Source of the DNA: Chloroflexota bacterium
GTDB taxonomy: Bacteria > Chloroflexota > Dehalococcoidia > Lucifugimonadales > UBA3495
Length of the DNA: 64,000 nucleotides
Assembly (NCBI GenBank): GCA_009837355.1
Contig: VXTR01000068.1
Location: 124,001-188,000 of the forward strand
Direction of reading: 5' to 3'
Part shown: piece after piece, positions 6,815 to 28,520 of the stretch
Layout of the letters: each line of letters starts with the position of its first letter
Position numbering within the stretch: position 1 is the stretch's first letter
Translations under genes and position numbers: made by a program
The notes under the pieces: model-generated
The model's database searches: none
What the model was told of the DNA's origin: nothing
Seen by the model: the letters and a program-made list of their open reading frames with translations, nothing else

Positions 6815-7852
6815 ATGGCCGTTACTAAGGCGAATCAGTATGACGAAGCCCTAGCCTTGGCCCACGAGGCAGGCTGGACGGATGGTCTCCCCATCGTGCC
6901 GCCTACCGCCGAGCGTGTTCGGGAGTTTGTGGAGGAGTCGGGGCGATCGGCGCTGGAGGTGGTGGGCGAGATTCCACCACGCGGCGGGCGTGCTACGGTG
7001 GAGAAGCTGGCGGCCAACGCCGTGATGGCGGGTTGCCTGCCGGAATATTTCCCCGTGGTCGTCGCTGCTATCGAGGCGCTGCTGCTCCCCCGGTTCAACT
7101 TGGCCTCGGTGCAATGTTCGACCCACATCGCCACGCCGCTAGTGGTGGTGAACGGGCCGATTGCCGGTGAACTGAATATGAATTCCGGCGGAAACTGTTT
7201 CGGGCAAGGTAACCGGGCCAACGCCACCATTGGCCGGGCGGTCAAGTTGGCCCTCACTAACCTGGGCGGCGCGCTGCCCGGCGACGAAGACCGGGCAACC
7301 TTTGGGCATCCCGGAAAATACACCTATTGCATCTCCGAAAACGAAGCCACCAACCCCTGGCAGCCCTACCACGTTGAGCATGGATACCGGTCGGACGAAT
7401 CCGTGGTTACCGTGCATCCGGCGGAAGCGCCCCACAACCTGAACAATCACGGCGCCGACAATCCCAGAGACCTGCTGACCACTTTCGCTGTGTCCATGGC
7501 GATCCCGGGGTGCAACAACATCAACGTTATGGGCGACGTGTTGTTGGTGTTGGGGCCGGAGCATGCTGAGATTATCGCCAGCGCTGGGTGGAGCAAGAAC
7601 GACGCGCGTTCGTACCTGTACGAACTGGCGCGGCAGCCCCTGTCGCTGCTGAAGCTGGGCGGTATCCACGGACGGCACACGCATCGCAACACCCTGTGGC
7701 CACGCTGGATTGACCGCAACAATGACGACGCCATGGTGCCGGTAGTGCGCCGTCCGGAGGATATCCATATAATGGTGGCCGGCGGGCCGGGCCGTCACTC
7801 GGTGTACATTCCAGGTTGGGGTTCGCGCATTACCTCGGCGCCGGTAACCTAG
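6815..7852 (+). CDS. Conserved protein, partner of the UGSC selenoprotein
   Basis: 345 residues from ATG 6815 with GGAG 8 bases upstream (the frame is open from 6740 inside the previous gene). No catalytic domain is named with confidence. Visible features are a conserved-looking N-terminus (EAGWTDGLPIVPPT), FNLASVQCSTH near residue 100, LNMNSGGNCFGQGNRANATIGRA, and PGCNNINVMGDVLLVLG. The cysteines in SVQCST, GNCFG and PGCNN could be catalytic or metal-binding, but this is inference. It ends about 20 bases before the UGSC gene and is probably co-transcribed, suggesting the two act on the same substrate or as a redox pair. Confidence 0.6.
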   Translation: MAVTKANQYDEALALAHEAGWTDGLPIVPPTAERVREFVEESGRSALEVVGEIPPRGGRATVEKLAANAVMAGCLPEYFPVVVAAIEALLLPRFNLASVQCSTHIATPLVVVNGPIAGELNMNSGGNCFGQGNRANATIGRAVKLALTNLGGALPGDEDRATFGHPGKYTYCISENEATNPWQPYHVEHGYRSDESVVTVHPAEAPHNLNNHGADNPRDLLTTFAVSMAIPGCNNINVMGDVLLVLGPEHAEIIASAGWSKNDARSYLYELARQPLSLLKLGGIHGRHTHRNTLWPRWIDRNNDDAMVPVVRRPEDIHIMVAGGPGRHSVYIPGWGSRITSAPVT

Positions 7853-8448: not shown

Positions 8449-9910
<1,462 letters not shown>

Positions 9911-9911
9911 C

Positions 9912-11027
9912 GTGTACTTTCCCATAGCCGACGCTACGGTTTCGCCATTGCTGCTGGCGTTGTTGGGCGTTGTCGTTGGCACCATGACCGGCTTCTTCGG
10001 AGTCGGCGGCGGCTTTCTCATCACGGGCGGGCTCTTGGTGCTAGGCGTACCTACTATCTACGCTGTAGGCACCGGGCTGTTGATGGTGATGGGGACTGCA
10101 ATCACCAGCACGTTGCGGCACCGACGGCTGGGGAACGTCGACCTCCGCCTTGCGATGCTGATTGTTTCCGGTACGATACCCGGCGTCTTTGCCGGGGAGC
10201 GAGTCAATGCCACCTTGGCCGAGGCCGGCATTGCGGGGCCCGTGATCGGCGCGGTTTATTTCGTCCTGCTGCTGAGCCTGGGTTCGCTAATGGTGGGGAA
10301 CTGGCTGCGGCGGCTGCGCTACAGTCCCGGTCCCAGGCTCAGCGGCGGCCTGCCGGGCTGGTTTCAAGCCGTGCGGTTGGGCCCGAGCAAGTTGTCCCTT
10401 CCGAGAGTAGGGGAGATCAACCTGCGCCCCGCGTTTGCCAACGCCGGCATCGCTGAGATGTCGGTGCTGGTGCCGATGTTGGCCGGTCTGTTTATTGGGT
10501 TCATCGCCGCGCTGCTGGGGGCTGGCGGCGGGTTCCTGCTGATGCCCTTCCTGGTGTACGGGTTGGGGATACCCCCGGCGGTGGCAATCGGCACCGACCT
10601 GTTTCAGATAATCATCACCGGGACCTTGGGCGCCTTCCTGTATTCGCTGAGTGGAAACGTGGACCCGGTGATCGCCGTCATCATGTTTGCGGCGGCGTCG
10701 GTGGGTACGCAGATGGGCGCGTTGGCGACGCGGTTCGTCAATGCCGCCCGCATACTGGGCCTGTTCGGGTTGACGGTGCTGAACGCGGGAGTGGCGGTGG
10801 GTTTGGGACAACTGGCCCGCGCGATAGGGTCTGACACCCTGGCCCTGGTGGGGCAACTGCTGCTCCTGGGAGTATCCGGGATGGTGGCCCTGACCATACT
10901 GGCGCTGCTTGGCCTGGCGATTGTGGTACAGGCCAGGCGCGGCCGGCGGCTGGCGCATTTGCGTCGGATGCGCCGGGCGGGGCGGATGATGGAAGGGCAG
11001 AGGACACCGGCCAGTTCAGGCGGTTAG
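9912..11027 (+). CDS. TauE/SafE family sulfite/organosulfonate exporter-like membrane protein
   Basis: 371 residues from GTG 9912 (TTG 9885 is an alternative overlapping the previous gene). Two homologous halves carry the family repeat: VGTMTGFFGVGGGFLITGG in the first and IGFIAALLGAGGGFLLMPF in the second. About eight membrane segments; a hydrophilic loop (residues about 135-180, YSPGPRLSGG...) separates the halves, and the C-terminus is a basic cytosolic tail. Members export sulfite, sulfoacetate or taurine-derived anions; the substrate is unknown and no sulfur genes are adjacent. Converges on aroB with a 12-base overlap of the 3' ends. Confidence 0.88.
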   Translation: MYFPIADATVSPLLLALLGVVVGTMTGFFGVGGGFLITGGLLVLGVPTIYAVGTGLLMVMGTAITSTLRHRRLGNVDLRLAMLIVSGTIPGVFAGERVNATLAEAGIAGPVIGAVYFVLLLSLGSLMVGNWLRRLRYSPGPRLSGGLPGWFQAVRLGPSKLSLPRVGEINLRPAFANAGIAEMSVLVPMLAGLFIGFIAALLGAGGGFLLMPFLVYGLGIPPAVAIGTDLFQIIITGTLGAFLYSLSGNVDPVIAVIMFAAASVGTQMGALATRFVNAARILGLFGLTVLNAGVAVGLGQLARAIGSDTLALVGQLLLLGVSGMVALTILALLGLAIVVQARRGRRLAHLRRMRRAGRMMEGQRTPASSGG

Positions 11028-12116
11028 CCAGGCCAAGGTGTCATCTACAATCTCGGTGGGTACGTCGCGGCGGACGGTAGCGCGGCCCACGTCCTCCAGC
11101 AGCACCCAGCGGTTGGCGCCGCCGACGGTTTTCTTGTCCAGGGACATGGCAGCTCTGATGCCGTCCAGATCGACATCCCGGGCGGTAATGGGCAGGTTGA
11201 ATCGCTGGAGCAGGACGCGCTGGCGCTCGAGGATGTCGTCGCCAATCATTCCCATCTCACGGGCGATGCGGCCGGCGCCCATCATGCCCACGGACACGCC
11301 TTCGCCGTGCATGAACCGGCCGTACTCGGTGGAGGCTTCCAGCGCGTGGCCGATGGTGTGCCCGTAGTTGAGCAGGATGCGGATGTCCAGGGTCTCACGT
11401 TCGTCCTGGCTGACGATGTCGGCCTTGATGGCCATGCTGCGGCGAATGACTTCAGTGGAGATTTCCGGTTCTACTTCCATGAGAGCCTCGGCGTGTTCCT
11501 CGAATACGTCCACCAGTGACGGGTCCAGAATAAGGCCGTGCTTGATAGCTTCTGCCCAGCCCTCGGACAGTTCGCGCTTGCCCAGTGTGGAGAGGGCTTG
11601 CACGTCGGCCAGGACAGCTCTGGGCTGGTAGAAGGCGCCTACCATGTTCTTGGCCTGCGGCAGGTTGACGGCAACCTTGCCGCCGATGGATGCGTCCACC
11701 ATAGCGGCCATGCTGGTGGGAACCTGGACGAAGGGCACGCCGCGCAGGAAGGTGCTGGCGATGAATCCGCCCAGGTCGCCGGAGACGCCACCGCCTATGG
11801 CGATGATGGGCTGCCCGCGTTCGGCTCTGAGGCTCACCAGCCACTCGTAGATTTCCTGGGCCTGTTGGAAGGACTTGCTGGTTTCGCCGGCAGGAATGAC
11901 GAAGCAGTGGGCGGCGATGCCGGCGCGTTGCAAGGCCCATTGGGCGTTGCGTCCATAGGGGCGCATCACGTTTTCGTCGGTGATGATGTAGGCGGTACTG
12001 CCCAGGCCGAGCTCGTTGATGTGCTCGCCGAGGCGGTCAATTACGCCCCATCCGGCAATGACGGGATAGCTGCCGCCTGAGTGGTGAACGGTTGCGGCGA
12101 GGTCAGGGTTGGTCAT
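11016..12116 (-). CDS. aroB: 3-dehydroquinate synthase
   Basis: 366 residues from ATG 12116, with GGAGGA in the aroK 3' end. NAD-binding GGGVSGDLGGFIASTFLRG, VQVPTSMAAMVDASIGGK, and zinc ligands in EGWAEAIKHG, LNYGHTIGHALE and MHGEGVSVGM. It converts DAHP to 3-dehydroquinate in the shikimate pathway. Start overlaps the aroK stop (ATGA at 12113-12116), so the two are translationally coupled. A longer frame upstream is the antisense/alternate frame of aroK and is not conserved. Confidence 0.96.
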   Translation of the reverse strand: MTNPDLAATVHHSGGSYPVIAGWGVIDRLGEHINELGLGSTAYIITDENVMRPYGRNAQWALQRAGIAAHCFVIPAGETSKSFQQAQEIYEWLVSLRAERGQPIIAIGGGVSGDLGGFIASTFLRGVPFVQVPTSMAAMVDASIGGKVAVNLPQAKNMVGAFYQPRAVLADVQALSTLGKRELSEGWAEAIKHGLILDPSLVDVFEEHAEALMEVEPEISTEVIRRSMAIKADIVSQDERETLDIRILLNYGHTIGHALEASTEYGRFMHGEGVSVGMMGAGRIAREMGMIGDDILERQRVLLQRFNLPITARDVDLDGIRAAMSLDKKTVGGANRWVLLEDVGRATVRRDVPTEIVDDTLAWLTA

Positions 12117-12685
12117 CGGGTTCCTCCGGGTTGCTGGACGGGGGTTTGGCCCTGGCCTTCTGCCCCGTGGTGATAGATATTCAAAATGGTTTCGGCCACC
12201 TGGTCCGGCGTGCGCTCGTCGGTGGCCACGGCGTGGTGAGCATAGGCGTAGGCGGGAGCCCGCTCGTCCAGGAGCTGGCGGATGCGTTCCAGCGGGTCGC
12301 CGCTGGCAAGCATGGGACGCACGGCGGCGCTGGGACTGCCGCGGCTGATGCGGTAGTGAATAGTTTCGGGACGGGCGGTGAGGCAAAACACCGTTCCGCT
12401 GTCCAGCAGCACCTGGCGGGTGAGTTCCTGGGCGAAGGCGCCTCCGCCGGCGGCGATGACCTTGTTGCCACCCTCGCAAAGCGTGAAGGCAGCATGGCGT
12501 TCCATGGCGCGAAAGACGGCTTCGCCGTCTTCGCTGAAGATGCGATGGATGGGCTTGCGGGCCCGGCGGACGATTTCCTCGTCGAGGTCGGCCATGCGCC
12601 GGCTGGAGGTGCGGGCGATGATGCGCCCAACATGGCTTTTGCCGGTGGCCATGAAGCCTACGAGAATGATGTTGTCGGATGGCAT
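12113..12685 (-). CDS. aroK: Shikimate kinase
   Basis: 190 residues. Walker A is GFMATGKSHVG, followed by ADLDEEI (magnesium/shikimate aspartate) and VIAAGGGAF (the shikimate-binding GGG), with a lid region near RGSPSAAVRP. Phosphorylates shikimate with ATP. It is the first gene of aroK-aroB. On the minus strand an extended -10 (TGG-CATAAT, hexamer at plus 12692-12697) lies only 6 bases before the ATG, so the transcript may be leaderless; no Shine-Dalgarno is visible. Confidence 0.94.
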   Translation of the reverse strand: MPSDNIILVGFMATGKSHVGRIIARTSSRRMADLDEEIVRRARKPIHRIFSEDGEAVFRAMERHAAFTLCEGGNKVIAAGGGAFAQELTRQVLLDSGTVFCLTARPETIHYRISRGSPSAAVRPMLASGDPLERIRQLLDERAPAYAYAHHAVATDERTPDQVAETILNIYHHGAEGQGQTPVQQPGGTR

Positions 12686-12703
12686 GGCGGCATTATGCCA
12701 TAA

Positions 12704-13372
12704 TCAGGCGGCCGGTGGGTTGCCGCCGGACGGCCAGGCTTCCGGGCCGACCAGGGGGACAAACTGGCACTGGGTGAGCTGTCGGATGACCGGTCGGTTG
12801 TCTAGGACACGAACCAGGGTCAGCACTTGACGTCCCAAGCTGCCGACCGGGATGACCAAACGGCCCAGGGGTTTGAGTTGGGCGATGAGGGCATGGGGTA
12901 CGGTTGGCGCGGCAGCGGACACCAGGATGGAGTCGTATGGTCCGGCGTCGGGCGCGCCGAGAACGTCGGTGGCGCATTGGACGTCAACGTTGGAAATACG
13001 GCAGGCTGCCAGGTTCCGGCGGGCGGTTTGGACGAGTTCGGGAATGCGTTCAACGGCAATGACGTGGCCAAAGGGCAACAGCTCTCCTAGGATAGCGGCC
13101 TGATAACCGGAGCCGGCGCCGACCTCGAGCACGCGTTCGTCGCCGCGCAGCGAGAGGGCCAGGGTCATCCGGACCACCATAGCGGGTTGCGAAATGGTCT
13201 GGCCGTGGCCGATGGCGAGAGCCGTGTTGCGATAGGCCAGATGTCGGAGTTGCGTGGGGACGAATAACTCGCGCGGTACGCTGCGCATCGCCTCCAGAAC
13301 CGGGCTTTGGCCCATGGCTGAAGCCAGTTGATCGTACAGGCGGTTGCGGTCGGCTTCCCAGGAAACGGTCAT
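12704..13372 (-). CDS. pcm: Protein-L-isoaspartate O-methyltransferase
   Basis: 222 residues from ATG 13372 (MTVSWEADRNRLYDQLAS); an ATG at 13423 in frame would add 17 residues and lies within a short repeat (13403-13432). SAM-binding motif I is VLEVGAGSGYQAAILGEL, preceded by GHGQTISQPAMVVRM, a PIMT hallmark, and followed by VSAAAPTVPHALIAQLKPLGRLVIPVG. It repairs isoaspartyl residues in aged proteins. It lies upstream of aroK in the same direction with an 18-base gap. Confidence 0.92.
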   Translation of the reverse strand: MTVSWEADRNRLYDQLASAMGQSPVLEAMRSVPRELFVPTQLRHLAYRNTALAIGHGQTISQPAMVVRMTLALSLRGDERVLEVGAGSGYQAAILGELLPFGHVIAVERIPELVQTARRNLAACRISNVDVQCATDVLGAPDAGPYDSILVSAAAPTVPHALIAQLKPLGRLVIPVGSLGRQVLTLVRVLDNRPVIRQLTQCQFVPLVGPEAWPSGGNPPAA

Positions 13373-24760: not shown

Positions 24761-25255
24761 CTAGCGGCCGGAGCGCATACCGATGTTGATGCTGTGTTCC
24801 GGCGCATAGGGCAGCAGGGCCAGGTAGCGGGCGCGCTTGATGGCTTGCGCCAAAAGCCGCTGGTTCTTGGCCGAGGTGCCGGTTTTTCGCGTCGGCTCAA
24901 TCTTGCCTTGCTCGGAGATGTACCGGCGCAGGCGGTCAACATCCTTGTAGTCGGGGGTTACTCCCTCGACGGTGAAGGCGCAGACCCGCCGCCGGGGGCC
25001 GTAGCGCCGTCCGCCGCGTCCGCCGCCGCCCCTCGGCCCTCCCCGTCCGGGAGGTCGTCCGCCGGGGCCGCCGGGTCGTCCGCCAGGGCCGGGAGGCCGT
25101 CCACCGGGCCCGCCTGAGTATGGCCGTGGTCCGGAGCCGGGCGCACCTTCGGAAGCGCTGGGGCTTGTCGTGGGCGCTGCAGCCGGGGCCGGTGAGGGCG
25201 CGGCTTGAGGGGAGTCGGCCGGTGTAGGAGAGGACGGAGCGGCTGGGGTAGTCAT
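24761..25255 (-). CDS. rpsR: 30S ribosomal protein bS18 with long N-terminal extension
   Basis: 164 residues, about twice the normal 75-80. Residues 1-40 are Ala/Pro/Ser-rich and 41-88 are Gly/Pro/Arg-rich (GGRPPGPGG repeats). The true bS18 domain starts near 89 ([11 protein letters not shown]) and includes [47 protein letters not shown]. bS18 binds the 30S platform beside bS6, whose gene is two upstream. The extension is encoded by unbroken frame with the same base composition as the rest and an ATG at 25255, so it appears genuine rather than a start-call artefact. Confidence 0.93.
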
Positions 25256-25309: not shown

Positions 25310-25804
25310 TCAGAAGGGCAAGTCGTCAACATCGGTCATCGGGTCTCCGGAGCTGCCGCCACCGTAGTCGCCGTAACCGCCGCCTTGCTGGCTGCCGTAG
25401 CCGCCGTCCTGTTGGCCACCGTAGCCGCCACTCTGCTGGCCGCCGTAGCCGCCGCGCTGGTCATCATAGCCACCATCTTCCCCGCGCCGGCCCAGCATCT
25501 GCATTTCGGTGATGGTAACGTCCAACGAGAAGCCTGGACTTCCATCCCGACGATCATACTGGCGGGAGCGCAGCCGTCCCTCAATGTAGACCTGCTGGCC
25601 ACGGGTAAGGTACTGGTTGCAGGTGTCCGCAAGGCGTCCAAAGGCAGTGCAGTTGAACCACTCCGTTTCCTCGCGTCGCTCGCCTGAGGCGGTGGTATAG
25701 CTGCGATTGCTGGCGATGCTGAACGACGTCATCGGATTTCCCGAGGCGGAATACCGCATCTCCGGATCCCGGCCCAAGTTGCCGATGATGATTATCTTGT
25801 TCAC
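25310..25804 (-). CDS. ssb: Single-stranded DNA-binding protein
   Basis: 164 residues. OB-fold: NKIIIIGNLGRDPEMRYSASG, SFSIASNRSY, EEWFNCTAFGRLADTCNQYLTRGQQVYIEGRL. Residues about 112-153 form a Gly/Gln/Tyr linker with GGYGGQQ repeats, and the C-terminal tip DVDDLPF is the acidic peptide that recruits replication and repair partners. Standard place between rpsF and rpsR; 54 bases separate it from rpsR. Confidence 0.96.
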   Translation of the reverse strand: MNKIIIIGNLGRDPEMRYSASGNPMTSFSIASNRSYTTASGERREETEWFNCTAFGRLADTCNQYLTRGQQVYIEGRLRSRQYDRRDGSPGFSLDVTITEMQMLGRRGEDGGYDDQRGGYGGQQSGGYGGQQDGGYGSQQGGGYGDYGGGSSGDPMTDVDDLPF

Positions 25805-25810
25805 GATAAC

Positions 25811-26509
25811 CTACGCTTCAGGTTCGCCGGTGGATTCTTCCGCGGGGGCGGGCGCAGCCTCGGCAGCCGGTTCTACGGCGGGTTCCGGAGTTGCGGGAGG
25901 GGCAGGAGTCTCAGCCGCGGCTTCCACCACCGGGGCAGGGGCGGCAGGTTCGGGCGTAGGCTCGGCTGCTGTTGGCGCTTCGGCGGGGGCTTCCGGTGAT
26001 GACGATGGCGCCGGTTCCGCAGCGGCTGTGCCAACGGGCGCTGCGGCAGGGGCCGGGGGCGCAGCGTCGGGTGTCCGAGCGGGGCCTCTGTCGGCGAAGC
26101 CGCCCGCCGCTTCAGGTATCGGGCCGCCGCCATCGTTGCGCCGGCCGCGTCCGGGCGGGATGTAGCGGGAGGGCGCGGTCAGCGGGCCGGGGGCAGGCCG
26201 GTCGGCCAGCGGGCCATCGCAGCGCACCACCAGGGAGCGCAGCACGTTGTCATGCAGCCGCAGGTAGTTCTCCAGTTCCCGGTTGAACGAGTTGTCCGAG
26301 GTAAAGGAGCTCAGGTAGTACGCACCTTCGAGGAAATTGTAGTTACCCTTGCGTATGGGATAGGCCAAACGCCGGGTTCCCCAAGTCTGCTCGGCGGTTA
26401 TCTCGCCGTCGCGGCCGGTGATGAAGGACTTTATCTCCTCCCAGGTGGCCGATGCGTCATCCTGGTTGAGCATCGGGCTGAGGATGGTTACGAGTTCGTA
26501 GTGGCGCAA
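25811..26509 (-). CDS. rpsF: 30S ribosomal protein bS6 with long C-terminal extension
   Basis: 232 residues, start TTG 26509 with AGGAG 8 bases upstream. The bS6 domain is residues 1-97 (RHYELVTILSPML, LAYPIRKGNYNFLEGAYYL, LHDNVLRSLVVRC). From about 100 to 232 there is an extension: first basic (YIPPGRGRR), then almost entirely Ala/Pro/Glu. Normal bS6 is about 100 residues. Forms a heterodimer with bS18 on the 30S platform, and both proteins in this operon are extended. First gene of a long minus-strand run; an extended -10 lies upstream. Confidence 0.93.
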   Translation of the reverse strand: MRHYELVTILSPMLNQDDASATWEEIKSFITGRDGEITAEQTWGTRRLAYPIRKGNYNFLEGAYYLSSFTSDNSFNRELENYLRLHDNVLRSLVVRCDGPLADRPAPGPLTAPSRYIPPGRGRRNDGGGPIPEAAGGFADRGPARTPDAAPPAPAAAPVGTAAAEPAPSSSPEAPAEAPTAAEPTPEPAAPAPVVEAAAETPAPPATPEPAVEPAAEAAPAPAEESTGEPEA

Positions 26510-26562: not shown

Positions 26563-27285
26563 CTATTCCGCCGCCAACTCGTTCAGCACCGATTCAATCA
26601 GCTGCACGCCCCGGGCGCCGGAACTGCGATGGGCGATGCGTCCCTCTTTGTCCAGGAACACGTAGCTGGGCACGCCCCGGATGTTGTAGGCGATGGCCAC
26701 TGCCGCGTTGGGGTCGTAGAAGTTGGGGAAAGTGAGCTCGTTGCGCTCGACGAACGCTATGGTATCGGCCCTGGTGGTGTTGAACTGGGACACGCCGATG
26801 ACGTTCACGCCGGCGTCATGCAGCTTTTCGCGATACAGCCCCTCGAGGGCGGGAAACTCCCGCCCACAGTGTGGTCACCAGGGCGCCCAGAACGCCAGCA
26901 GGGTCGGCGTGCCGAAGGTTTCAGAAAGCGTAATTTCCGTTCCGTCCAGCAGTTCGGCCTGGAAAGGCGTGGCCGCAATACGCTCGCCATCGCCTTCTCG
27001 CGTCGGCACCGGCCGGGGCGTGTACGTGGGCCGGGGACGGGGCGTGTAGGTCGGAGGGGCCGGAGTATCTGTGGGCATGACCGTCGGATCTGCCATTGCA
27101 GTTGGCGGTTCCGTAGGCGCGGCGGTTGGCAGCATTGCGTCCACCGTGGCCCCGTGGTCAATGACCGCCGGCGCGCCGGACGAGGGCGAGGTGCATCCGA
27201 GCAGCAGCCCGCCGAGCATCGCCACGATGGCCAGCGTCGCCATTGCTATCGAAATCGGTGAAGGCACCCGGCTAATATAGCACAA
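26563..27285 (-). CDS. Selenocysteine-containing TlpA/thioredoxin-like lipoprotein (UxxC)
   Basis: The frame continues through TGA at 26875-26877 to the stop at 26563, 240 residues from ATG 27285 (GTG 27267 is an alternative). Lipobox LLLGC follows a signal peptide, then a Thr/Pro linker with a PTYTPRP repeat. The redoxin domain begins near 110. The active site reads LLAFWAPW-U-PHC-GREF, where the usual protein has WAPWCPHC, so UGA replaces the attacking cysteine (residue 137; C140 resolves). The fold is complete downstream: VIGVSQFN, IAYNIRGVPSYVFLDKEGRI. A perfect 8-bp SECIS-like hairpin follows. It would reduce or oxidise extracytoplasmic thiols. Confidence 0.88.
26847..26865 (-). promoter_or_regulatory. 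SECIS element of the selenocysteine thioredoxin gene
   Basis: On the minus strand GGGCGGGA (plus 26858-26865), loop GTT (26855-26857), TCCCGCCC (26847-26854): perfect 8-bp stem with the loop G 18 nt after the UGA. Position inside the coding region and a G/U apical loop fit a bacterial SECIS; loop and closing A-U pair match those of the UGSC gene. Confidence 0.75.
27274..27282 (-). promoter_or_regulatory. Extended -10 promoter of the selenocysteine thioredoxin gene
   Basis: Minus strand TGC-TATATT (hexamer at 27274-27279). Six bases separate the hexamer from the in-frame GTG at 27267, so transcription would start at or beside that GTG, implying a leaderless mRNA and favouring GTG 27267 over ATG 27285. 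Confidence 0.45.
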
Positions 27286-27350: not shown

Positions 27351-28520
27351 ATGAAGTTGCACGAATACCAAGCCAAAGCCATTTTCGCTGAGCAGGGCAT
27401 TCCGGTTCCCAATGGGAAAGTGGCTCGCACTCCTGACGAAGCGGCGGATGCCCTGGAATCTTTCGGAGGCAGAGGTGTGGTCAAGGCGCAGGTTCACGCT
27501 GGAGGTCGGGGTCTGGCCGGTGGCGTCAAGGTAGTCGGTTCACCCGAAGAGGGACGGGATTTCGCGGCCGGCCTGCTGGGCTCACGGCTGGTAACGCACC
27601 AGACGGACTCCGGCGGCGTGCCCGTGGACAGTGTCCTGGTAGAAGAGTTGGCGGATATTGACCGCGAGATGTACGTCGCGCTGACCATGGACCGCGACCA
27701 CCGAGGGCCGGTGCTCATAGCCAGTGCCGCCGGTGGAATGTCGATCGAGGAGGTTGCCGCCGACGACCCGGACGCCATCATTACGGAAGCAGTGGAGCCG
27801 GGCCTGGGCCTGATGCCCTACCAATGCCGGCGAGTGGCGGCACGGTTGGGCCTGACCGACGTGGCGGCGCGTCAGGGTGCGGATATTCTCGGCGCGCTGT
27901 ACCGCGTGTTCATGGCTAACGACTGCACGCTGGTGGAAGTGAACCCCCTCATCGCGACGGGCGACGGCGGCGTGGTGGCCCTGGACGCCAAGATGGACGT
28001 TGAGGACGACGCCCTGTTCCGCCACGCTCAGCTCCACGAATTACGCGACCGCAGCCAGGAAGACCCGTTGGAAGCGCGGGCGGCGGACGATGACATCGCC
28101 TACGTCAGCCTGGATGGCAGCGTAGGCTGCCTGGTGAACGGGGCAGGGCTGGCCATGGCCACGCTGGACGTGGCCAACGCGGCCGGCGCAGCTCCCGCCA
28201 ACTTCCTGGACGTGGGCGGCGGAGCCTCTGAAGAGAAGGTGGCCACCGCCGTGGGCATTATCCTGTCCGACCCCAAGGTTGACCGGGTGCTGGTCAACAT
28301 CTTCGGCGGCATTCTCCGCTGCGACATTGCGGCGCGAGGCATCGTAATGGCGTATGAAGAGCGCGGGGCGACGCAACCGTTGGTCGTGCGGATGCTGGGC
28401 ACCAACCTGGAAGAAGGCAAGGCTATCCTGGCGCAGTCAGGCCTTGACGTAACTTTCACCGACACGCTGACCGAAGCGGCGGCGGCCCTTGCGCCCGGAC
28501 CTTCGGTGCGGAGCGCGTAA
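27351..28520 (+). CDS. sucC: Succinate-CoA ligase, beta subunit
   Basis: 389 residues. N-terminal ATP-grasp domain ([38 protein letters not shown]), [20 protein letters not shown] for magnesium-nucleotide, and the C-terminal CoA-ligase half with [47 protein letters not shown]. Works with SucD in the TCA cycle, interconverting succinyl-CoA and succinate with ATP/GTP formation. SucD begins 4 bases after its stop. Confidence 0.97.

Follow-up and report, generated by a model that had tools for sequence, protein, structure and literature searches.

The window, i.e. the whole stretch of 64,000 nucleotides analysed here (G000:C46:124001-188000), belongs to a genome of 3.25 Mb in 89 contigs with 96.6% completeness. 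Its minus strand possesses a gene at 26563..27285 that, according to translation, orthologues and Pfam, encodes a predicted selenoprotein: a lipoprotein with a ResA/TlpA-like domain whose frame is read through a UGA codon. Translated from 27285 to 26563 with TGA as selenocysteine (Sec, U), the frame comprises 240 amino acids with just a single recoded codon, U137, in the motif FWAPWUPHCGRE, and terminates with TAG (26565-26563, minus strand). Translation, orthologues and alignment place the UGA codon (26875..26877, minus strand) at the first position of U-P-H-C. A preliminary description of this DNA, which named no strand, had a TGA at 26877-26875 replacing the first Cys of W-A-P-W-C-P-H-C, which the minus-strand translation bears out. 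The resolving cysteine of the motif, Cys140 (26866..26868, minus strand), is invariant in an alignment of 20 Sec proteins. The plus-strand reading of 26563-27285 was rejected, as its product is not gene-like.

The codon TTG at 27285, from which the gene had been described, probably precedes the true start, because it directly adjoins a putative -10-like box, TGCTATATT (27274..27282, minus strand), and because several orthologues possess in-frame stop codons at this place, upstream of their own ATG. Boxes resembling TGCTA[CG]GGT occur near the start region of many orthologues; a consensus scan did not pick up TGCTATATT at 27282-27274. Comparison with the orthologue starts suggests that translation probably begins at GTG (27265..27267, minus strand), possibly leaderless, or alternatively at ATG (27243-27241, minus strand).

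Downstream, the gene is followed by those of ribosomal protein S6 (25811..26509, minus strand), SSB (25310-25804) and S18 (24761-25255). S6 adjoins the orthologue in four relatives, with the order S6-SSB-S18 kept as far as the contigs reach, and in the remaining relatives the orthologue is located elsewhere, not beside S6. The divergent neighbour (27351..28520, plus strand), an ATP-grasp/CoA-ligase protein of the succinyl-CoA ligase beta subunit type, is not seen beside the orthologues in relatives. No redox partner gene is seen near the window gene or its orthologues in the neighbourhoods compared.

A predicted lipoprotein with a thioredoxin fold

By sequence, the protein possesses a hydrophobic segment and the lipobox LLGC (27193..27204, minus strand), in which C31 is the predicted lipidated residue of the mature protein. 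The lipobox of the orthologues follows the pattern [LIVT]x[GA]C, and its Cys column (C32 in A1 numbering) is invariant in the 20 aligned Sec proteins, as are U137, C140 and the cis-proline. A low-complexity, Pro/Thr-rich linker (26974..27192, minus strand; AF2 pLDDT 48-65 over most of it) connects the lipid anchor with the domain.

Residues 105-240 (26566..26973, minus strand) form a predicted thioredoxin fold of the ResA/TlpA-like type, as indicated by Pfam (AhpC-TSA 8.2e-22, Redoxin 1.5e-18), the AF2 model (pLDDT 91-98 from residue 101 on) and the match of this model to ResA (rmsd 1.5-1.6). Among solved structures, ResA, StoA and the Etrx lipoproteins of pneumococcus belong to the nearest in sequence. 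The predicted cis-proline, residue 206 in GVP (26668..26670, minus strand; P207 in A1 numbering), faces the active site. Both the TlpA-like domain behind an N-terminal lipobox and the cis-proline region GVPSYVF downstream of the active site, features of the preliminary description, are therefore present, and the protein combines the thioredoxin fold, UxxC motif and cis-proline of TlpA/ResA-like redoxins (cd02966 type). We infer a protein lipidated at C31, extracytoplasmic and engaged in thiol-exchange chemistry; any function beyond thiol/selenol redox chemistry is predicted from the fold alone.

ResA of Bacillus (1st9, 2f9s, 4nmu; CPHC variant 3c71), with Z 23.4 and 25% identity, is likewise a membrane-tethered extracytoplasmic redoxin, but with Cys and the partners CcdA and ResB, whereas the window protein has Sec and neither partner was detected in the source genome; the ResA model NF002854 yields 79.4 bits, under its cut-off of 170. 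Etrx1 and Etrx2 of Streptococcus pneumoniae (4hqs, 4hqz; Z 19.5) are lipid-anchored, TlpA-like surface redoxins that carry Cys where the window protein has Sec; they are fed by CcdA1/2 and reduce MsrAB2 (PMC3914529). NCBIfam NF041054 (WAxxUGC_long) shares the ResA-like domain and Sec in a WAxxU motif, but this 354-position model has UGC in place of UPHC, and the window protein reaches 44.5 bits, far below the cut-off of 300. The model NF053656 (TUGYCR-motif thioredoxin-fold (seleno)protein) weakly matches two of the 20 aligned members (best 1.9e-8) and does not match the window protein. The latter stays below the cut-off of every NCBIfam model, including those for ResA and WAxxUGC.

Selenoproteins of the UxxC type, similar to thiol-disulfide isomerases, received their name in 2005 from four Sargasso Sea sequences (PMC1088965), and a catalogue of 2026 lists both a UxxC family, under cd02966, and a TlpA family of the UGC type (PMC13188914, Table 1). 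This family shares with the window protein the TlpA-like domain, Sec as first residue of UxxC and an origin from marine bacteria; it is defined at domain level, and the comparison of the window protein with it was made by description. Since such proteins are catalogued and four related copies occur in the source genome, its earlier description as uncommon is not supported with regard to its kind. The type of selenoprotein is already known; what is new is the expansion of the family here, together with the absence of a detected electron donor of the usual sort. Its lipoprotein nature, clade and paralogue expansion are not described in the literature searched: a search on selenoproteins of SAR202 and sponge Dehalococcoidia returned nothing on the window gene, and the deep-Sep paper makes no mention of this family.

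Predicted selenocysteine at codon 137

An orthologue is present in all 13 other genomes of the genus examined (56-69% identical, one of them cut by a contig end). Each has a single in-frame stop, namely a TGA that coincides with the UGA codon of the window gene and lies within UPHC or UPYC; the same UGA accordingly occurs in 14 of 14 genus genomes, and no Cys version was found among their matches at E 1e-30 or better. Behind the UGA the frame is stop-free, with 103 open codons in every complete orthologue, and the other two frames are not. Over the 13 orthologues, median dN/dS is 0.20 for the 32 codons that precede the UGA and 0.19 for the 103 codons that follow. Alignment to TlpA/ResA proteins matches residue 137 with the catalytic Cys of the homologues, and independent assemblies agree on TGA at this codon.

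Such conservation, with equal dN/dS on both sides, is predicted for a translated read-through product and not for a pseudogene. Were the UGA a real stop, in line with the standard ORF call that finishes at 26875, the locus would hold a pseudogene or a short lipoprotein without active site; the recurrence of the codon in 14 genomes, the open frame and balanced selection behind it, a SECIS element with compensatory changes and the presence of Sec machinery (both below) render this highly improbable. The gene is a clear example of a conserved gene split in two by ordinary gene callers.

The bacterial SECIS hairpin GGGCGGGA-GUU-UCCCGCCC (26847..26865, minus strand), predicted from folding, covariation and the comparison of Sec with Cys sequences, comprises 8 perfect base pairs and the loop GUU (26857-26855, minus strand). 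It is the hairpin of the preliminary description, found at 26865-26847. According to a published rule, a bacterial SECIS possesses a loop of 3-9 nt with G in the first two places, a stem of 4-16 bp, a spacing of 16-37 nt and an MFE of -7.5 or lower (PMC13188914); the window hairpin agrees in every respect, with 17 nt from UGA to loop and an MFE of -17.6 kcal/mol. Hairpins of this strength (stem of at least 8 with at least 7 G-C, loop of 3-9, G within the first two loop bases, 16-37 nt from the TGA) follow 0.3% of the 1703 TGA triplets on both strands of the window, and 1.35% of these triplets possess at least 100 open codons on each side. The evidence from conservation outweighs both chance figures by far.

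The folding z-score of the hairpin alone is modest (-1.5), and the weight of the hairpin evidence rests on sequence comparison, not on folding of the single copy. In 25 aligned post-UGA stretches, a 7-bp stem with G-U in the loop is kept; 80% of the stem cells pair, and 26 are changed on both sides versus 7.9 in shuffles. The covariation score is 0.417 versus 0.118 in shuffles, none of 500 being as high, and at most 0.22 when the stem is slid; the shuffles do not correct for relatedness, but the slid-stem control retains it. Under a single scoring rule for both sets, a strong hairpin is located at this place in 85% of 27 Sec sequences versus 10% of 42 Cys homologues. The compared sequences indicate that pairing is maintained through compensatory changes and is mostly missing from the Cys homologues. 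A covariance model of the hairpin (R1), built from an alignment that contains the window sequence itself, detects no further Sec gene in the window (next best E 0.53). Rfam has no match at gathering score over the window and is thus uninformative on the SECIS.

All components of Sec insertion that were searched, the lack of which would have spoken against the preliminary description, are present in the source genome: SelA (556 bits, cut-off 268), SelB (355 bits, cut-off 242), SelD (382 bits, cut-off 125) and a tRNA-Sec above the Rfam gathering score with the anticodon TCA (ARAGORN). SelD itself contains Sec, with an in-frame TGA at AGUAAK. As an ordinary stop, TGA ends 12 of the 32 long ORFs of the window, and many orthologues of the window gene end in TGA. 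With the machinery present and TGA a normal stop, the codon is explained neither by a different genetic code nor by the lack of a Sec pathway. Insertion of another amino acid (e.g. Trp under a changed code) or a sequencing error behind the TGA has a very low probability as well, considering the ordinary use of TGA, the alignment of the codon with the catalytic Cys and the concordant assemblies.

Because of conservation, purifying selection, SECIS, Sec machinery and the ordinary use of TGA elsewhere, the UGA of the window gene is almost certainly read as selenocysteine. Comparative sequence evidence establishes read-through, machinery, SECIS, fold and purifying selection, and supports Sec as the attacking residue of a lipoprotein redoxin similar to TlpA/ResA, as first described.

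Redox chemistry and electron supply

In the mechanism proposed, SelB would bind the SECIS hairpin that immediately follows the UGA and insert selenocysteine at U137. The protein would be exported and lipidated at C31, with its ResA/TlpA-fold domain outside the membrane on a flexible linker. The selenolate of Sec137 would attack a client disulfide, other oxidised sulfur or a peroxide, Cys140 would resolve the mixed bond into a Se-S bridge, and an electron donor would restore the selenol. We assign a probability of roughly 85% to the window gene encoding such a membrane-anchored extracytoplasmic selenoprotein with Sec137/Cys140 thiol-selenol exchange.

Lipoproteins of the ResA type usually receive their electrons from DsbD/CcdA, and ResA works with CcdA and ResB. 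A search for PF02683 (DsbD_TM), the family that includes CcdA, yielded no match in the 14 genus genomes, three single-contig relatives among them, but did match 10 of 14 control genomes; a divergent CcdA could be missed, some members of the order scoring only 19-24 bits. A profile search for ResB (PF05140) had no match in the source genome. Furthermore, the dipeptide PH of the active site is that of the oxidant DsbA. In one thioredoxin, the swap to CPHC shifted the potential from about -287 to -221 mV, still outside the DsbA range (PMC4395160). With the DsbA dipeptide and no DsbD/CcdA detected in the genus, the strong reductase of the preliminary description is not established.

The same selenoprotein might instead act as a surface Sec peroxidase or a DsbA-like oxidant or isomerase, a proposal based on UPHC and the missing DsbD/CcdA match, and to which the missing ResB match, AhpC-TSA as best Pfam hit, PrxQ/AhpE structures matching at Z 18-19 and the rise of tens of mV with CPHC (PMC4395160) add. 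We regard this as the less probable function, since the reductases ResA, StoA and Etrx are closest in sequence and structure, the cis-proline of disulfide exchangers is retained, CPHC alone left the thioredoxin unlike DsbA and a divergent CcdA may evade PF02683. Disulfide reduction is slightly favoured as main function, ahead of a peroxidase or oxidant role, with neither established.

More tentatively still, the genus might run a Sec-based surface redox system independent of DsbD/CcdA, in place of the usual CcdA-fed Cys redoxins, with several paralogous Sec lipoproteins either fed by an unrecognised donor or acting as peroxidases or oxidants. The missing DsbD/CcdA match leads to a testable question, namely how, or whether, an extracytoplasmic selenol stays reduced. 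Yet the 14 genus genomes that show no PF02683 match abound in TlpA-like redoxins of both the Cys and the Sec kind.

Related selenoproteins in the genome and order

The source genome possesses at least four such Sec redoxins according to the UGA+SECIS covariance model and translations. A paralogue on another contig (L185, G000:C27; UGA 7066-7068, SECIS model score 55 bits) is a UPHC Sec lipoprotein 42% identical to the window protein; its surroundings, only proteins without Pfam match or with LRR/CARDB, offer no functional clue. Two tandem Sec redoxin genes with the motifs WUPLC and WUPHC (9409-10305 and 10337-10963, both minus strand; L184, G000:C73:12000-29887) are oriented divergently to a gene (11078-13150) that encodes a thioredoxin-domain protein of the DsbH type (DUF255). 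A Prx-like protein (L149, G000:C70:8091) contains an in-frame UGA in WUPYC, open on both sides; this copy has a weak SECIS model match (E 0.21) and was judged by translation. A search of a plasmid collection returned only TlpA/ResA matches with about 33% identity over the domain.

The UGA+SECIS model matches in 24 of 60 relatives' genomes, including all 14 of the genus, and SelA lies above cut-off in 55 of the 60; Sec use is therefore general in the order, and the window-type Sec redoxin is a feature of the genus. The genus consists of uncultured marine bacteria, partly sponge-associated, and to these marine Dehalococcoidia the present data add a genus-wide, multi-copy group of predicted exported Sec redoxins. 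The relatives that bear names are MAGs of Dehalococcoidia/Chloroflexota; one of them, 'SAR202 cluster bacterium bin87', stems from the sponge Aplysina aerophoba (PMC5649159). SelA and SelB are reported to be enriched in sponge symbionts, co-occurring in most symbiont bins and missing in most of the free-living references (PMC5649159). In a tree of Sec and Cys forms, the Sec forms group together, though on few columns, and long branches (the Prx-like copy) are unsafe.

In another relative (L055, G008:C144), tandem paralogues have diverged to the motifs UGYC and UERC; their hairpins are weaker, and under the simple rule one of the paralogues lacks a SECIS. More distant relatives contain a second, order-wide Sec group, in which, by eye, QSS, QST, QAS or a similar sequence stands where the cis-proline (GVPS) would be (L147, L148, L165, L167, L168, L169, L170, L172, L173, L057, L059); by these sequences, the cis-proline typical of disulfide exchangers seems to be lost beside Sec in this group. 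Some proteins of this group carry two Sec domains within a single frame: L059 (G045) and L060 (G057) possess two Trx-like domains each, every domain with its own in-frame UGA, and appear to be double-Sec fused redoxins with the motifs WUPTC (L059) and WUTYC (L060), each present twice.
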